DNA of 15,939 nucleotides from an uncultured Caulobacteraceae bacterium (GTDB taxonomy: Bacteria; Pseudomonadota; Alphaproteobacteria; Caulobacterales; TH1-2): positions 1-15,939 of the forward strand of contig CALBST010000141.1 of assembly GCA_937967425.1 (NCBI GenBank). The letters run 5' to 3'. Positions 5,864-12,645 of this stretch are shown here, piece after piece. Numbering within the stretch: the stretch's first letter is position 1; the number at the start of each line of letters is the position of its first letter. Position numbers and translations under genes: made by a program. The notes under the pieces were generated by a model. It had not been told where the DNA came from and searched no databases. It saw only the letters and a program-made list of their open reading frames with translations.

Positions 5864-6271
5864 ATGGAACCTATCGCACAGGCAACCGCTATCGTTCTTG
5901 CTGGCGCTTCGCTCGGCTGGATCGCGCTCTTCTCGTTCGTGCTGGCGCCGGTGGCGTTCAAGCAATTCGACGCAGGCCGCGCCGAGCGCCTCGTAAAGCA
6001 TGTCATGAATTCCGGGCACGGGATTTTGGGTCTGATCGCGTTTGCTTCGGCGATTGCCGCGCTTATGGCGGGCGCGATCGCTGGCGCTTCGGTGGCGGCA
6101 GTGGGCGGCGCCTTCGCGTTCATGTGCAAGTTCGCGCTCGCGCCGCGCGACGATAAGCCGATCAAAGGCCATCGCGTGCTGAAGACCGCGCGCATCGTGG
6201 CGTCCGGACTGACTGCCTTTATCGCGCCGGTTCTGATCGCCGCGATCGTGCTGACGATGCTGAAGATTTAA
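5864..6271 (+). CDS. DUF4149/TMEM205-like four-helix membrane protein
   Basis: This 135-residue integral membrane protein has hydrophobic segments at about residues 8-30, 50-72, 75-92 and 112-133. The first loop LAPVAFKQFDAGRAERLVKH (residues 27-46) and the polar segment KFALAPRDDKPIKGHRVLK (residues 89-107) match the layout of DUF4149 (TMEM205-like) proteins, whose function is not established. The ATG at 5864 has only a weak purine-rich region upstream. It is divergent from the ATP-grasp operon. Its stop codon overlaps the stop of the convergent phospholipase-like gene in the four bases TTAA (6268-6271). The family assignment is from remembered sequence pattern and is moderately secure. The inner-membrane location is secure. 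Confidence 0.7.
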   Translation: MEPIAQATAIVLAGASLGWIALFSFVLAPVAFKQFDAGRAERLVKHVMNSGHGILGLIAFASAIAALMAGAIAGASVAAVGGAFAFMCKFALAPRDDKPIKGHRVLKTARIVASGLTAFIAPVLIAAIVLTMLKI

Positions 6272-7869
6272 GCGGCGGCTGTCGCTTTGCCTTCCTGGAT
6301 TGCGCGCTTGGCGCGCTCGATCCAGGTGGCGACGTCATCGGCCGTCGGCGCTGGCGCTGTGCCCCAGGCGCGCTGACCTTCATCCGACAAGCCCCATTGC
6401 GCGACGCCTTCGCACAATTGCACGGCGTCGCTCTCCGCCAAGTCCTGCGCATCCTGGATTCCGCACGCAACCAGGGCCTGCGCTTCGCGTGACTTCAAGC
6501 CGGGGACGGTGCATGCAAGTAGCGCTTGCGCTTGCCAATCGCGGATCACCTTGGCTGAGATGTGACGCGCATCGATCTGCTGCTCGCCCTCTTCTGCATT
6601 CATCGCCAGCAGATCGGCGATCGTCTTCACGCCAACAGCTTCGAGACGCTTTGCGGTCTTCGGGCCAATCGACGGCGCCTGCACAACCGGCGCGCCTTCG
6701 TTGAGCGTGAACTTCGGCAATGTCTTCTCGCGCTTCGCCAGCGGCGCGCCTTCCGGTAGCTCACGCGGCATTTGCTGCTTCGTGGGCGCCGGCAGCGCGA
6801 TCGGTTGCGGTTCGGACTTCGTCTCCAGTTCGATGGTGCGCACTGGCTTGGCGCGAGGCAGCGCTGGCGCCTTTGTCTTTGAGTTGCGCGGGGGCGCGCC
6901 CTCGCCCGCCTTCCCACCGATCTCGCGAGGCCACTTAGCGTCCAGCGAAGAAAGCGGCGTCTTCAGCACCTCGGCGGCGTGCAATTCGCGGACAAGCTTG
7001 TCGTCTTCGCCCAGCGTCGCCCGAACTTTTCCGGTGCGTTGGAACTCTTCGAACTGCGCCTGCACCTCGCGGCGCGAGGCGGCGTCGTCCAACGCCTTCA
7101 ATACAGTCTGGATTGGGATTTCGAGCGCCAGGAAGAAGGCCTGCAAGTCGCCGCTCACTTTCGGCGGCCGAACCGCAGCTTCCTCGAACGCGCGATCGAG
7201 GATACGCGCAAGACCGACGGCCGCGTGGCCGACAAGCTTTGCAATCGTGTCCTTCAGTTCCTGATCGAGCCCGGCCGGCGGGTCCTTCACGCCCTTAGCG
7301 AAGTCATAGTGATCGATGACTGTTTCGTAGTGCTGGTTGGACTCGCGCGCCCCTGCGCGCACCATTTCCGCCAGCCAACTCTCGCCGCCGGGCGCATCCA
7401 TCTTCGGATAGCCGCCCATGTCGTTCTCGAGAATCCGTTGGAAGGTGGCGTAGGACTTCGAGAAGCTCCACTCGACGGCGCGGTGAATGACATTCTCTTC
7501 TTCTGTTTGGTGGGTGTGGAACGGCTGAATCGGATCGACGTAATAATGGCTCATCACACCGGCCGACCATGCCGCCAGCTTCCAATCCTTCGCCGCCAGC
7601 GCGCGCACCGTGCGGCGGTACCATTCTTCGCAGCTCTCGATCGCCCCGCCCCACTCCTTTTCGCGCACGTGCAGGACGTGGTTCTTGAAATCCTTGAACT
7701 GCTCATCCGGCGCCTTTGCGCCAGCGAGGTAGTCGGCGTGATGGTGCAGCAGCAGGTTGCGCCAGCGCTCGGCGTCCGGGCTCTGCAGGTGTCGCAGCGC
7801 ATCGACCGCCAAGCGGTGATGGTTTGACCGGCAGCGGCTCGCGAAAACGACCGCATACAATAGCGACAT
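6268..7869 (-). CDS. Zinc-dependent phospholipase C/P1-nuclease-like domain fused to a DUF4332 helix-hairpin-helix domain
   Basis: This 533-residue protein has two folded parts. Residues 1-235 resemble the all-helical zinc phospholipase C/S1-P1 nuclease fold. Candidate metal ligands are H17/H18 in NHHRLAVDAL, H64 or H67, H108 and D112 in MSHYYVDPIQPFHTH, H118, and H129 and E133 in VIHRAVEW. That matches the HxxxD...H...HxxxE order of the family. Residues about 310-395 are a proline- and lysine-rich linker. Residues 398-530 form a DUF4332-like region with a helix-hairpin-helix phrase, SIGPKTAKRLEAVGVKTIAD, probably for nucleic acid or protein binding. No signal peptide is seen, unlike secreted phospholipases, so a cytoplasmic role is likely. 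AAGGAAG lies just before the ATG. The substrate (phospholipid, nucleic acid or other) is not determined. It lies 69 bases downstream of the GmrSD-like gene on the same strand. Confidence 0.75.
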   Translation of the reverse strand: MSLLYAVVFASRCRSNHHRLAVDALRHLQSPDAERWRNLLLHHHADYLAGAKAPDEQFKDFKNHVLHVREKEWGGAIESCEEWYRRTVRALAAKDWKLAAWSAGVMSHYYVDPIQPFHTHQTEEENVIHRAVEWSFSKSYATFQRILENDMGGYPKMDAPGGESWLAEMVRAGARESNQHYETVIDHYDFAKGVKDPPAGLDQELKDTIAKLVGHAAVGLARILDRAFEEAAVRPPKVSGDLQAFFLALEIPIQTVLKALDDAASRREVQAQFEEFQRTGKVRATLGEDDKLVRELHAAEVLKTPLSSLDAKWPREIGGKAGEGAPPRNSKTKAPALPRAKPVRTIELETKSEPQPIALPAPTKQQMPRELPEGAPLAKREKTLPKFTLNEGAPVVQAPSIGPKTAKRLEAVGVKTIADLLAMNAEEGEQQIDARHISAKVIRDWQAQALLACTVPGLKSREAQALVACGIQDAQDLAESDAVQLCEGVAQWGLSDEGQRAWGTAPAPTADDVATWIERAKRAIQEGKATAAA

Positions 7870-7925: not shown

Positions 7926-7944
7926 GGTTAGCGAGGCGTTAACC
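7926..7944 (-). promoter_or_regulatory. CtrA-box-like inverted repeat upstream of the phospholipase-like gene
   Basis: GGTTA and TAACC arms flank a nine-base spacer. Read on the minus strand this gives TTAA-N7-CTAAC, one base off the CtrA consensus TTAA-N7-TTAAC known from Caulobacter. It overlaps the stop codon of the GmrSD-like gene and lies 57-75 bases before the phospholipase-like start. A further TTAACC half-site lies at 7902-7907 (minus-strand reading). The regulator assignment is inference. Confidence 0.33.
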
Positions 7945-9603
7945 GCCCCGCACCAGCCCCCAATCTTCGCTGAGAATCCGCACCAGCCGCTCGTGACGCT
8001 CCTCGATGGCCTGAAGGGTCCATTCCGCAATCGGCGCGATGTCCTTGGTAAGGGCCAGGATCGGCGCGTTGGTGTCGAAATAGATCTTGCGCTTCTCCGG
8101 ATAGGGCTTCACGTCGGCGGAGGCGTTCTGGTTGTAGGTAAGCAGCGTGAGGTTGCCGAGCAGATTGGCCAGTTCGCCGCGCAGCGCGGGATCGGGAAAA
8201 CGCTCGTTCCACCAAGGGCCGCCGTTCTTCGGCAGCACGTGCTCAACCGTCGCGTCGTCTGTCATCCGCACGATGCGCCCACCCGGCATCGCCGCCTCCA
8301 AGCGCATCAGCAGCAAGCGGCGCTGACGGTCGCGCTTCCGCGAACGGTTAAGCGTGTGAAAGAACTTCATCTGCTCGGCGTCGGTGAGCAGCAGTGCGCG
8401 CTGCTTGCCTTCACCGGCATAGAGCACCTTGTCGTCGCTGACATATTTTATGATATTGGCGTACCGCGCTTCGCGATCGCGGTTCTCGACGACCGAGAGT
8501 TCGCACGCAAAAGTGAAACGATCGAGCGCCTGGAAGAAACGGCGCGCGCGCTCGTGTTCGGAAGCGTGCTCCGCCAGGAACGCGATGGCGCACGGCGCCC
8601 AATCCCACTGCTCCACTTCTTTCATGAGCGCGACGCGGCGGTTCACTTCGGCGCTGGCTGGGCCGACATCGATGGAGCCTGCGAAAATGGCGCGCAACGC
8701 GTGCGCGTAGCGCGGCAGCTGCTCGAACAGGAAAACACGCACGCCGCCCGCCCGCTCGACTGCGGTGCGGAATGAGGCCAAGTCTCCAGGCGAAAGCAAC
8801 GGTTCGCCCGTTAGCAGGAACGGCATCATGTAAAGCAAACGCGCGAAGTTCTCACGCTCGAACAAATCTTCAGTTTGCTCCCACTTACGCGCGGCCGCAT
8901 CCGCCTCGGTATTTGAGAGGCCGGAATTCTCCAGCAAGTCGCTCTTGATTATGTCCGCGCCCGAAAGCGGCGAACCGCGTTTATTTAGCGTGTTGAACAC
9001 GGTTTGCGCGCAGCCGCGCTCATCAGCATCGACAACGTTCAGCGTACAGGCGCGCACGACGTACGACATGAACGCATCCAGCTCGCGATCTTCCGTGATC
9101 TTGCTGAGCTCAGACTCGATCGTGCGAGAGGCGCCGGCAATCAGATCCTTGGAGTCGACGCCAATCTCGGCGTGACGCGCGAGCTCTTGCATATGTCCCG
9201 GCTCTTGCACGTAGCCGAGATAGAAATTCTGATCTTCCTCACGCAGCAGCAAACGCGGCGTGTTTCCGTCCATGATCAGGGTTTGATATTGCTTCGAGCG
9301 GCCAGGAATTCGATCGCGCACATAAGCAAGCATCATCGTCAGCGTCGCGAGACGTTGTTGTCCGTCGGAGACTTCAAGCTTGCCATGATTTTTCACGAGG
9401 ACGATCTGGCCAATGAAATAGAACGTCGCGCCGCGCTTGTAGGCGCGCCACAGATCCTGGATGAGCTCACGGACTTCGCGGTCGGTCCAAGTGTAGGGAC
9501 GCTGGTAGCGCGGAACTTTGAGCTGCTTGCGCGTGAGCACCGCGCCCAGATTTAGGATTGTGGAGGTCAGCCCGAGGGGCGTGTCGCCGAAAGCGCCGGC
9601 CAT
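7939..9603 (-). CDS. GmrSD-type DUF262 + DUF1524 (HNH) nuclease-like protein
   Basis: This 554-residue protein has the N-terminal DUF262 domain: VPRYQRPYTW at 30-39, the nucleotide-handling motif DGQQRLATL at 80-88, and FNTLNKRGSPLSGADIIKSD at 203-222. It also has a C-terminal DUF1524 His-Me-finger nuclease: ATVEHVLPKN with H455, LGNLTLLTYNQN at 482-493, and PYPEKRKIY at 500-508. Both domains appear intact. The family includes GmrSD, a type IV restriction enzyme cutting glucosylated hydroxymethylcytosine DNA, and SspE and BrxU, which act in phage defence. A role in cutting modified foreign DNA is therefore plausible, but many family members are uncharacterised. The ATG at 9603 has GGGGAG seven bases upstream. 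murI lies upstream and the phospholipase-like gene downstream. No dnd, ssp or methyltransferase partner is present in the window. Confidence 0.9.
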   Translation of the reverse strand: MAGAFGDTPLGLTSTILNLGAVLTRKQLKVPRYQRPYTWTDREVRELIQDLWRAYKRGATFYFIGQIVLVKNHGKLEVSDGQQRLATLTMMLAYVRDRIPGRSKQYQTLIMDGNTPRLLLREEDQNFYLGYVQEPGHMQELARHAEIGVDSKDLIAGASRTIESELSKITEDRELDAFMSYVVRACTLNVVDADERGCAQTVFNTLNKRGSPLSGADIIKSDLLENSGLSNTEADAAARKWEQTEDLFERENFARLLYMMPFLLTGEPLLSPGDLASFRTAVERAGGVRVFLFEQLPRYAHALRAIFAGSIDVGPASAEVNRRVALMKEVEQWDWAPCAIAFLAEHASEHERARRFFQALDRFTFACELSVVENRDREARYANIIKYVSDDKVLYAGEGKQRALLLTDAEQMKFFHTLNRSRKRDRQRRLLLMRLEAAMPGGRIVRMTDDATVEHVLPKNGGPWWNERFPDPALRGELANLLGNLTLLTYNQNASADVKPYPEKRKIYFDTNAPILALTKDIAPIAEWTLQAIEERHERLVRILSEDWGLVRGG

Positions 9604-9725: not shown

Positions 9726-10556
9726 CTAGCGCGATAGTCCCGCAACTTCAAAGTTCGGCGCTTCGCCGATCCGCGAAAAATCCGAGAAGCCTCTCGCCTC
9801 GAATGCACGCAAAGGTGCGCGCGCGCTATCTGCGCTTGTGAACCCTGCACGCCTAACGCGCACCGGCCCCTCTTCAGCAATCAAGACATGTGCGAGCCGG
9901 CGCGCGATCGCTTCGCCGGAATCCATCCACACGCATGGACGCGGCGCAGCAACCGCCAGTTCCGCCGCCAGCAGTGGGAAGTGCGTGCAGGCGAGCGCGA
10001 CAACATCGATCTCGGCGCCGCCAGGGGCGCCAAAGAGACCTTGAATTGCATCTGTGATTGCAGATTTGTCAACCGCCTCGCCGCCCAGCTTCCGCTCCGC
10101 GGCTTCAACCAGTCCGGCGGAGCCAAAGCGGATCAAGCGCTTTCCAGCCGCGAATTGGGCGATGAGGTCGTTCGTGTAAGGACGCTGAACGGTGGCCGGG
10201 GTCGCCAAGAGGCCGATAACGCCTGTGCGCGTGAGCGCCGCGGCCGGCTTTATTGGCGGCACAACGCCGACAACCGGAATGCTCAACGCCGCGCGAACCG
10301 GCTCCAGCGCAATCGTCGACGCCGTGTTGCAGGCTACGACAACGGCCTCCGGCTCCCACTGCGCCACCAGCCGCGAGAGCAAGGCTGGGACACGGGCGCG
10401 CAACTGCTCGTCGGTTTTCAGACCGTACGGGAGCCAGGAATTGTCGGCGGCGTAGTCCAGCTCGAACGCGTGCCCGGACGCGGCGATGGCATCCAGCACC
10501 GAGAGCCCGCCGACGCCCGAATCGAACACCAGAACGCGCTTTGCGCCGTTAACCAT
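9726..10556 (-). CDS. murI: Glutamate racemase MurI
   Basis: MurI interconverts L- and D-glutamate in the cytoplasm, supplying D-glutamate for peptidoglycan. The 276-residue protein has the N-terminal FDSGVGGLSVL with D12 and S13, and the two catalytic cysteines C76 (VACNTAS) and C190 (ACTHFPLL). It also has the substrate-region phrases AADNSWLPYG (residues 36-45) and GVVPPIKPAAA (97-107). Length and motifs are normal for the family. The start ATGGTTAAC places a TTAACCAT motif (opposite strand) across the initiation codon. A 122-base gap separates its stop from the GmrSD-like gene. Upstream is a divergent region of about 200 bases shared with the MBL-like gene. Confidence 0.95.
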   Translation of the reverse strand: MVNGAKRVLVFDSGVGGLSVLDAIAASGHAFELDYAADNSWLPYGLKTDEQLRARVPALLSRLVAQWEPEAVVVACNTASTIALEPVRAALSIPVVGVVPPIKPAAALTRTGVIGLLATPATVQRPYTNDLIAQFAAGKRLIRFGSAGLVEAAERKLGGEAVDKSAITDAIQGLFGAPGGAEIDVVALACTHFPLLAAELAVAAPRPCVWMDSGEAIARRLAHVLIAEEGPVRVRRAGFTSADSARAPLRAFEARGFSDFSRIGEAPNFEVAGLSR

Positions 10557-10712
10557 TTGGGCAATCAGACCGCAGCGAGAACGTTAACCAATGCGCTGAT
10601 TTAGGCCCGCTTTTCCGTTTCGGCCAGCATACGGCGCGCATCTGTGGAAACCTCGCGTTAACCGACTTTGCGGGAATCATAAGCACGGGTAGCAACGCTG
10701 GAGTGGGGTTAA
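10549..10712. promoter_or_regulatory. Cluster of TTAACC/TTAA motifs in the murI–MBL-like divergent region
   Basis: TTAACCAT (10549-10556, overlapping the murI start), TTAACCAA (10584-10591), TTAACCGA (10658-10665) and TTAAACGT (10709-10716) all lie in the same orientation between the divergent genes. TTAACCAT is known in Caulobacter as a half-site associated with CtrA. No complete TTAA-N7-TTAA box was found here. Control of murI and the MBL-like gene by a cell-cycle regulator is an inference. Confidence 0.35.
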
Positions 10713-10758: not shown

Positions 10759-11718
10759 ATGAACGCCATCGGCAAATCGTCCGTCGTCTTCGTGACGCTG
10801 TCAGGCCTGTTCTGGGGCGGATGGGTGTTGGGCTCGCAAACGCCCGAAGGCCAAGAAGCTATCGCACGCGCTTACGCCGCGTACGCGGAGCAGCAAACCG
10901 CGGCCAACGAAGATCTCTTCGATTCAACCGCGCTTCGCGCCGTCGTCTGTGGCGGCAGCGAGAACGGCGCGCAGCAGCCCTGCCTCGCGGTTGTCGCAGG
11001 CGGCCGGCTCTTCATCGTTGATGCCGGCTCGGGAGCAGCAGAATCGCTCATTCAGCGCGGCGTGCCGATGGCCCGCCTGCAAGCGGTGCTGCTGACCAGC
11101 TCTGGTCTCCAGCAAATGTCCGATCTTAGCGAAATGTACGGCCACGCCACGCGCGGGCGCGACGATGCGCTGCTGCCGGTTTACGGCCCGGCCGACACAC
11201 AGCGCATGGTCGATGGCTTGAACCAAGCCGCCGGGATGGACGGCGCCTCGCGCGGCTTACAGGCCTGGGGCCCCTCGCCGGAGCCCGGCCGCTCAGTCAT
11301 CGTATTCGAAGGCGACGGCCTCACGGTTTCCGCCTTCACCACACAAGAAGACGCATTCAGCGGCCGCGTCGGCTATCGCTTCGATTATCGCGGCCGTTCG
11401 ATCGTCGTCGGCGGCGATGGGCGCATGATTGGCGCGGAAGCGGCCTTGAACGCCGACGTGGTGCTGCAGGGCGCGCAGAGCCAAGCGCTCTCGCATATCC
11501 GTCAGCAAGCCAGCATGACAGCGGCGGAAGTGGCGGCGCAAGCGCGCGGCTCGAACGCCGGCCTCGTCGTGCTCACCGGCGCGAACAACCAGGTCGAAGC
11601 GCAAGTGCAGCTCTCGGAAGCGCGCGCTGCGGGCTTCGACGATGTGGTGTCAGGCCGCGTCGGCACGCTGGTGGAGCTGCCGCTCGATAACATGGAAATC
11701 AACGTCCGTCCGCTTTAA
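10759..11718 (+). CDS. Membrane-anchored metallo-beta-lactamase-fold protein lacking metal ligands (pseudoenzyme)
   Basis: This 319-residue protein has an N-terminal hydrophobic segment (residues 8-25), then a chain that follows RNase Z-like MBL-fold hydrolases closely. C64 and C75 sit in the usual first-strand region. LFIVDAGSGAAESL (84-97), RLQAVLLT (106-113), LLPVYGP (138-144), VGYRFDYRGRSIVV (204-217) and D220 all match. The metal-binding HxHxDH that should follow LLT is SSGLQQ (114-119). The later ligand positions are also changed: TQE (195-197) where VDH is usual, LQGAQ (236-240) where VHEA is usual, and VLTGANN (271-277) where LTHxVPP is usual. Only the aspartate is kept. The frame is intact, so this is a maintained non-metal protein rather than a decayed gene. 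Its role is unknown. A terminator follows directly. Confidence 0.8.
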   Translation: MNAIGKSSVVFVTLSGLFWGGWVLGSQTPEGQEAIARAYAAYAEQQTAANEDLFDSTALRAVVCGGSENGAQQPCLAVVAGGRLFIVDAGSGAAESLIQRGVPMARLQAVLLTSSGLQQMSDLSEMYGHATRGRDDALLPVYGPADTQRMVDGLNQAAGMDGASRGLQAWGPSPEPGRSVIVFEGDGLTVSAFTTQEDAFSGRVGYRFDYRGRSIVVGGDGRMIGAEAALNADVVLQGAQSQALSHIRQQASMTAAEVAAQARGSNAGLVVLTGANNQVEAQVQLSEARAAGFDDVVSGRVGTLVELPLDNMEINVRPL

Positions 11719-11841: not shown

Positions 11842-12645
11842 ATGCGCCTGTCATTTGCCTTCGCCGCATTCGCATTTCTGTTCGCGACGCCCGCGGCGGC
11901 GGATCGCTTTGCCCTGACCTATGATGGCCTGGGCTTAGGCTTTGTGCCTGTTGGCGGCGTCACCGTCGATGCAGACGTCTCCGAGGATAGCTACGACATC
12001 TCCGCTTCGCTGCAATCGCGCGGCATCCTGAACTTGTTCGAGCGCACAAACATTCAGGCCAACTCATCAGGACTGATAAATAACGGCACGGTGCGGTGGC
12101 AACGCTACCATTTGGATCACCACTATAGCCGCAAGCGCCGCGTCATCAGCATGAGCGCGGACATCGACGGCTCCATCACGTCGGAGATCGAGCCGATCTA
12201 CCGGACCTGGGGCGATCCGGCCGCGACCGAGGAGCAGCGCCGGATTTCGCGGGACCCGCTCTCGAATGTCGTCGCCATGGCCATAGACGTAGGCCGCTCG
12301 CACCGCTGCGAAGGGACCTATCCAACCTTCGACGGCCGCTTTCATTACCTGCTGCAACTCAGCGGCGGCGACGTCGATGATTTTGAGGGCGGCGGTTACC
12401 AAGGCGAGGTGCTGAAGTGCGATCTTGCCTACATCGCGGTCAGCGGCTTCAACCCGCGCGACGCGGGCCGCCGGCGCATCCCCGAAGGTGAAATCTGGTT
12501 CGCGCTGATGCCGGACACGACATTCGCGCCGCCGGTACGCATCTCGACGCCGCTTTCCGCCGGTGGCGCGACGATCCGGCTCTCCGGCTTCCGGCGCGCG
12601 CGCGTTGACGTGGAATACACGTCCGATACATCCGCCAGACCTTGA
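11842..12645 (+). CDS. DUF3108 domain-containing periplasmic protein
   Basis: This 267-residue protein has a signal peptide (MRLSFAFAAFAFLFATPAAA, cleavage after A20) and a mature, beta-strand-rich domain. The opening DRFALTYDGLGLGFVPVGGV and the following YDISASLQSRGILNLF match DUF3108 proteins, a periplasmic or outer-membrane-linked family of unknown function in proteobacteria. Two cysteines, in HRCEGTY and VLKCDLAY, could form a disulfide. It is the first gene after the strong terminator, so it probably has its own promoter in 11771-11841, where I could not find a convincing -35/-10 pair. Its TGA overlaps the TTG start of rsmB (TTGA), which suggests translational coupling with an unrelated cytoplasmic enzyme. 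Confidence 0.8.
   Translation: MRLSFAFAAFAFLFATPAAADRFALTYDGLGLGFVPVGGVTVDADVSEDSYDISASLQSRGILNLFERTNIQANSSGLINNGTVRWQRYHLDHHYSRKRRVISMSADIDGSITSEIEPIYRTWGDPAATEEQRRISRDPLSNVVAMAIDVGRSHRCEGTYPTFDGRFHYLLQLSGGDVDDFEGGGYQGEVLKCDLAYIAVSGFNPRDAGRRRIPEGEIWFALMPDTTFAPPVRISTPLSAGGATIRLSGFRRARVDVEYTSDTSARP

Follow-up and report, generated by a model that had tools for sequence, protein, structure and literature searches.

A conserved MBL-fold protein that has lost its metal site: a probable pseudoenzyme encoded near murI in Caulobacterales

Background

Pseudoenzymes of the metallo-beta-lactamase (MBL) fold are best known from eukaryotic RNA-processing complexes. PNGM-1 and RNase Z are metal-dependent hydrolases with an HxHxDH site. 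In ELAC2, the long form of RNase Z, the N-terminal half is degenerate; it has lost the metal motifs and aids substrate binding. Passages of PMC7980224 and PMC4819959 describe CPSF100 and INTS9 as MBL-fold proteins with a degenerate metal site that form complexes with an active partner. Here we consider a 15,939-nucleotide contig of an uncultured Caulobacteraceae bacterium (CALBST010000141.1 of assembly GCA_937967425.1; the whole stretch is called the window) and the product of one of its genes, which we name pMBL. No earlier description of this family turned up in listings of open PMC papers. An initial annotation saw an MBL-fold protein with an open frame and a lost metal site, and that observation is real.

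10759..11718, plus strand: coding sequence of pMBL, an open frame for an MBL-fold pseudoenzyme of 319 amino acids

We argue, with a probability of roughly 0.8 for the explanation as a whole, that pMBL is an ancient, lineage-specific MBL pseudoenzyme with a non-catalytic role.

Results and discussion

Predicted fold

The AlphaFold2 (AF2) model of pMBL (predicted local distance difference test score 86.9) has the alpha-beta-beta-alpha arrangement of the MBL fold. The chain of 319 residues is taken up by the MBL domain and, ahead of it, two helices. The closest known structures are those of PNGM-1 (PDB 6j4n, with its mutants) and of RNase Z from bacteria (1y44, 2fk6). ELAC2 is also among the matches, through its C-terminal half. 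One other fold match is an entry titled arylsulfatase (8gyg).

Sequence profiles score the protein low. The Pfam MBL profiles fall under their curated cut-offs (PF12706 at 23.5 bits against 27, PF00753 at 14.6 against 22.7), and the RNase Z equivalog cut-offs of NCBIfam are missed widely (NF000806 at 39.6 bits against 363, TIGR02651 at 13.6 against 292.95). A beta-CASP domain gave no Pfam match up to an E value of 1, and an Rfam scan of the window no match at gathering cut-offs. Where family members carry a database name it is often 'ribonuclease Z' or 'MBL fold metallo-hydrolase', and on the evidence here these names are misleading.

Loss of the metal site

Homologues were taken as the best 120 of 472 matches to the window protein and the best 120 of 388 matches to a profile of divergent members. 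Combined, they give 221 distinct listed proteins, counting that of the window itself (P0001). They were aligned as 222 pMBL rows (the window standing twice) against 120 homologues listed for a single active paralogue used as query (L059), the best 120 of 4697. Entropies come from a smaller alignment, A3, with 106 pMBL rows (105 of 116 representatives plus the window, chains above 345 amino acids having been removed before the choice) and 41 active rows.

11098..11115, plus strand: site of the former HxHxDH motif, which reads SSGLQQ (residues 114-119)
11347..11349, plus strand: former His of the VDH motif, now E197 (His in 0/222 rows, Glu in 167/222)
11416..11418, plus strand: D220, the bridging Asp of the SGDT motif (here GGDG), the only metal-ligand residue left
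11467..11469, plus strand: former His of the VHEA region, now Q237 (Gln in 145/222, His in 75/222)
11572..11580, plus strand: site of the former LTH motif, which reads LTG (residues 272-274; His in 0/222)

The replacement of HxHxDH by SSGLQQ and the absence of the VDH and LTH histidines are as first reported. In the HxHxDH columns, 216 of the 222 pMBL rows have none of the four ligand residues and no row has more than one; the usual residues there are S/G/N, G/D, T/Q and Q/R, and the LTH histidine is replaced by a gap, G, N or S. All seven ligands, the four of HxHxDH among them, are intact in each of the 120 listed actives. The claim of loss at all sites must be narrowed to six of seven, since the bridging residue is Asp in 219/222 rows and Asn in 3. 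This Asp is the only ligand in 213 rows, and 3 rows have none. The other 6 have, besides it, a single ligand residue of HxHxDH (the first His in P0050, the second His in P0063, Asp in four rows). VHEA, which had been counted among the usual metal-ligand regions, is not a usual ligand. Its histidine was probably lost later, en route to the window's branch, because 75 of the 222 rows keep it and it is invariant (H240) in an 11-row alignment of divergent members (A2).

The stretch that held HxHxDH has become loose, with an entropy of 1.35 bits in pMBL against 0.28 in the actives. Two aspartates next to former ligand sites are almost fixed: D122 (219/222) and D198, directly after E197 (Asp in 221/222), at positions that are mostly Gly in the actives (102/120 and 96/120). 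The replacement motif itself is not conserved, and the expectation of a clade sharing an SSGLQQ-type replacement holds for the clade only. HxHxD was found in 0/221 distinct listed pMBL proteins and is also absent from all 54 pMBL open reading frames (ORFs) in genomes, 39 of them distinct. No intermediate with a mostly kept HxHxDH was seen among the 221 listed proteins or among the matches in 249 genomes of the order (E<=1e-35) and 385 genomes of the class (E<=1e-30). This strongly supports the reading of pMBL as a pseudoenzyme, and it very likely lacks canonical metallo-hydrolase activity.

Distribution and phylogeny

The members are bacteria of soil and water, and the names attached to them include Hyphomonadaceae, Terricaulis, Candidatus Viadribacter, Caulobacterales and Alphaproteobacteria. 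Most are metagenome-assembled genomes, and one of these is named Hydrogenophilaceae (P0133). A passage of PMC12700997 proposes Aquidulcibacteraceae for Terricaulis, Vitreimonas and Aquidulcibacter. Of the 60 genomes in the same family as G001, 41 carry pMBL (E below 1e-100). In the order sample it is present in 33 of 249 genomes, all belonging to that family set, and one extra match (G131) is an active protein. In the class sample it is in G001 alone of 385; ten other matches all have HxHSDH.

A maximum likelihood tree of 81 rows separates all 36 pMBL rows from the rest at a branch whose support is 100/100. It holds every third pMBL row and every second active row of A3, with 10 class-level and 14 genome actives added. 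The pMBL stem is 1.89 changes per column, and the midpoint root serves for drawing only. pMBL is one clade that lacks the site.

The active-paralogue profile is matched in 31 of the 41 pMBL genomes, where G015 is counted for a weak match with an internal stop; the other 10 have no match at E<=1e-40. The active paralogue is also present in 7 of the 19 family genomes that lack pMBL. In two loci (L020, L021) an active membrane-anchored paralogue directly precedes a sulfatase ORF (PF00884 in L020).

Selection

The ratio of nonsynonymous to synonymous change (dN/dS) was computed by the Nei-Gojobori method with our own script over 10 pairs, from the window and four loci. It is 0.068-0.115 for pMBL, and synonymous divergence of 0.5-1.7 makes all these ratios rough. 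At the same loci it is 0.069-0.124 for murI, 0.079-0.123 for rsmB, 0.072-0.156 for DUF3108, 0.044-0.072 for a GmrSD gene and 0.035-0.085 for rpe. pMBL is under purifying selection, and its constraint is about equal to that of its neighbour murI and of housekeeping genes. None of the 41 family matches has an internal stop (three are partial). The dN/dS estimate across relatives that was first proposed gives no sign of decay.

Membrane helix, cysteine pair and C-terminus

10774..10839, plus strand: N-terminal membrane helix, residues 6-27 in the AF2 model, with W19, W22 and G16xxxG20 / G21xxxG25
10843..10920, plus strand: juxtamembrane helix, residues 29-54 in the AF2 model (G31 in 222/222, Y39 in 221/222, F54 in 220/222)
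10948..10983, plus strand: C64 and C75, a possible disulfide that would link the first two strands
11674..11715, plus strand: conserved C-terminal stretch ELPLDNMEINVRPL, residues 306-319 (E306 in 222/222)

The anchor that had been proposed appears in the model as the helix of residues 6-27, and it is far better conserved than that of the active paralogues. W19 and W22 are found in 222/222 pMBL rows, G21 in 221/222 and G25 in 220/222. Residues 10-26 have an entropy of 0.44 in pMBL against 1.99 in the actives, where the pattern of Trp and small-xxx-small is much less marked. This pattern suggests helix-helix packing, either as self-association or with a partner. Judged from sequence and model, the helix would span the membrane with its N-terminus in and its C-terminus out. 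C64 and C75 are each kept in 222/222 pMBL and 120/120 active rows, which fits an oxidising compartment. The C-terminal stretch has an entropy of 0.78 in pMBL against 1.51 in the actives. Constraint has shifted: the former ligand stretch is loose, and the helix and C-terminus are tight. This is the pattern expected for selection on something other than metal catalysis. No member seen retains the site, yet fold, anchor and surfaces are preserved, and we conclude that pMBL is very probably under selection for a non-catalytic role.

Gene neighbourhood

9726..10556, minus strand: murI, glutamate racemase, the divergent neighbour (TIGR00067 of NCBIfam above cut-off)
11842..12645, plus strand: DUF3108 protein (PF11306 above cut-off)

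We compared 24 loci, 16 close and 8 divergent. The position of pMBL is conserved: murI lies near it in 24/24, transcribed away from it. DUF3108 is near pMBL in 22/24 (L016 is cut by a contig end, and L049 lacks DUF3108 in the stretch read), including seven divergent loci, of which five have it on the pMBL strand and two on the other. The eight divergent loci gave no rsmB, rpe or DUF4332; for three of them the stretch is at most 8 kilobases (kb). A D-Ala-D-Ala dipeptidase (PF01427) stands between murI and pMBL in all six divergent loci read for it (L049, L050, L052, L053, L055, L056). An ancestral active MBL next to murI in genomes without pMBL was looked for with the pMBL profile, and 17 murI loci with flanks of about 1.5 kb gave no match; they come from 16 of 20 genomes searched (the 19 family genomes and G131).

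The neighbourhood holds other genes of note. A GmrSD-type (DUF262/DUF1524) nuclease at 7939-9603 on the minus strand has the same place in 16/16 close loci at 63-93% identity, and its low dN/dS is unusual for a defence-type gene. At 6268-7869, also on the minus strand, one protein combines a Zn-dependent phospholipase C-like domain with DUF4332. A DUF1800 and DUF1501 gene pair lies between pMBL and DUF3108 in one locus (L002:7011-9733, by Pfam), and similar ORFs occur in L007 and L010.

Upstream element

10643..10678, plus strand: conserved block TGTGGAAAC ... TTAACC-N10-GAATC, a likely promoter or regulatory block of pMBL

The gap between murI and pMBL is 202 bases. A TTAACC-like sequence followed by GANTC is arranged in this way in 31 of 39 orthologue upstreams (L043 was omitted, as the start pattern did not fit it), among them 5 of the 11 from divergent loci; shuffles give 0.21 on average and 2 at most. 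The pattern was composed after the sequences had been viewed and the orthologues are not independent, so what the counts show is that the element is conserved; they do not show a regulon. With a tighter pattern, 4/4 genomes give a single match each, 76-104 bases before the pMBL start. The reversed form of that pattern, as a control, also gives 4 matches there (1, 0, 3, 0), so the number of matches is not above chance and only their location is telling. A regulon with the whole motif was not found with this pattern in the 4 genomes, where all 4 matches are upstream of pMBL. GANTC is the CcrM site, and TTAACC is similar to the CtrA half-site. Regulation of pMBL by CtrA and CcrM may be read from these motifs. 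Between 10675 and 10758 there is also a conserved short inverted repeat (CGCGCC...GGCG/GCGCG) and a GGGGTC just ahead of the pMBL start codon.

Alternative explanations

One less likely reading pairs pMBL with its active membrane-anchored paralogue, as CPSF100 is paired with CPSF73 and INTS9 with INTS11; in such a heterodimer pMBL would be the inactive half and would stabilise or direct the active one. The two proteins have the fold family, the plan of the N-terminal anchor and the Cys pair in common, the paralogue profile matches in 31/41 pMBL genomes, and parts of PMC7980224 and PMC4819959 provide a precedent in INTS9 and CPSF100, MBL proteins without activity of their own that each form a dimer with an active MBL protein. 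However, 10/41 pMBL genomes have no paralogue match, an eleventh (G015) has the weak one with an internal stop, and the active protein occurs in 7/19 genomes without pMBL. Since the two occur apart, this pairing is unlikely as the general role, and as an obligate rule it is unsupported. In a variant, pMBL may pair with another of the many MBL proteins. The kept D220 and the newly near-invariant D122 and D198 make another ion site possible. A re-made all-carboxylate site of Ca2+ or Mg2+ type would turn pMBL into a different enzyme or an ion-gated sensor, and the Gly usual at two of these positions in the actives speaks for it. However, conserved aspartates may have a structural part (N-caps, turns), there is drift at the very positions of the former ligands, and the window's branch does not retain H240 and H251 (A2 numbering) together, as the divergent branch does. 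We consider this highly improbable, more so than the heterodimer. To a decaying pseudogene, or an artefact of assembly or sequencing in a single strain, we give almost no weight. Catalytic residues are where decay would begin, but 220 further listed homologues have the same loss, dN/dS is about 0.1 and the family matches are free of internal stops; there is neither relaxed selection nor a broken frame, and we reject it.

Several points count against an ancient pseudoenzyme with a non-catalytic role in the envelope. The loss is incomplete, with D220 kept and D122 and D198 nearly fixed beside former ligand sites. No pMBL match exists in 19/60 family genomes. Placement in membrane and periplasm is drawn from sequence, the model, one Lys before the helix and the Cys pair. 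Linkage to murI can be passive synteny, and we know of no partner, ligand or phenotype of pMBL.

Proposed role

The most parsimonious history for this pseudoenzyme would begin with a relative of the membrane-anchored PNGM-1/RNase Z-like MBL hydrolases. The dinuclear metal site would have been lost, most simply once, in the ancestor of the Terricaulis-type Caulobacterales group, and pMBL would have been retained ever after, in single copy and close to murI. The membrane and juxtamembrane helices would anchor it in the inner membrane, leaving the MBL domain on the periplasmic side. Emptied of its metal site, this domain would be a binding or scaffold surface, for self-assembly or as an adaptor, and no hydrolase. 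Between a scaffold or adaptor and a ligand sensor we lean towards the former. The initial annotation, partly supported overall, had proposed a new structural or sensing role, which may fairly be inferred.

Linkage to murI, with the D-Ala-D-Ala dipeptidase of the divergent clade, suggests a job in the cell envelope. This is the best lead, and it is based on synteny; a link to the cell wall is less likely than not. A fuller version would make pMBL a membrane-tethered, non-catalytic envelope part. Its emptied pocket, with the near-invariant D122, D198 and D220, would sense or bind an ion or a ligand related to the wall, its W/GxxxG helix would signal or assemble a complex, and its TTAACC/GANTC promoter next to murI would set expression. 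The odds are long against all of this holding together.

Comparison with known systems

pMBL is an MBL pseudoenzyme with a conserved membrane helix in a bacterial lineage that has cultured members (Terricaulis, with the soil bacterium T. silvestris). Since many of these genomes also carry the active sister family, they offer a natural experiment on the change of a metallo-hydrolase into a scaffold or sensor. Relative to PNGM-1 and RNase Z, pMBL has one of the seven ligands and adds a conserved N-terminal membrane helix. The active membrane-anchored paralogues of Caulobacterales (such as P0222, P0245 and P0292) share with it an N-terminal hydrophobic stretch, C64/C75 and the VDAG/FDAG, GYRxDYxGRS and GD motifs, at 26-32% identity to the window protein (41 active rows of A3). 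They differ in keeping every ligand (120/120 listed) on a weakly conserved anchor, and the 14 that were aligned have two insertions missing from pMBL. The degenerate half of ELAC2 is fused to an active half and has no membrane anchor, unlike pMBL. CPSF100 and INTS9 are like pMBL in that the MBL fold is retained under selection minus its metal ligands. They work in RNA 3'-end processing and carry a beta-CASP domain, for which the pMBL chain leaves no room. pMBL, by contrast, bears a membrane helix, and in 10/41 genomes it occurs with no match to its nearest active paralogue. CPSF100 and INTS9 show that a fold of this kind can be used in assembly.
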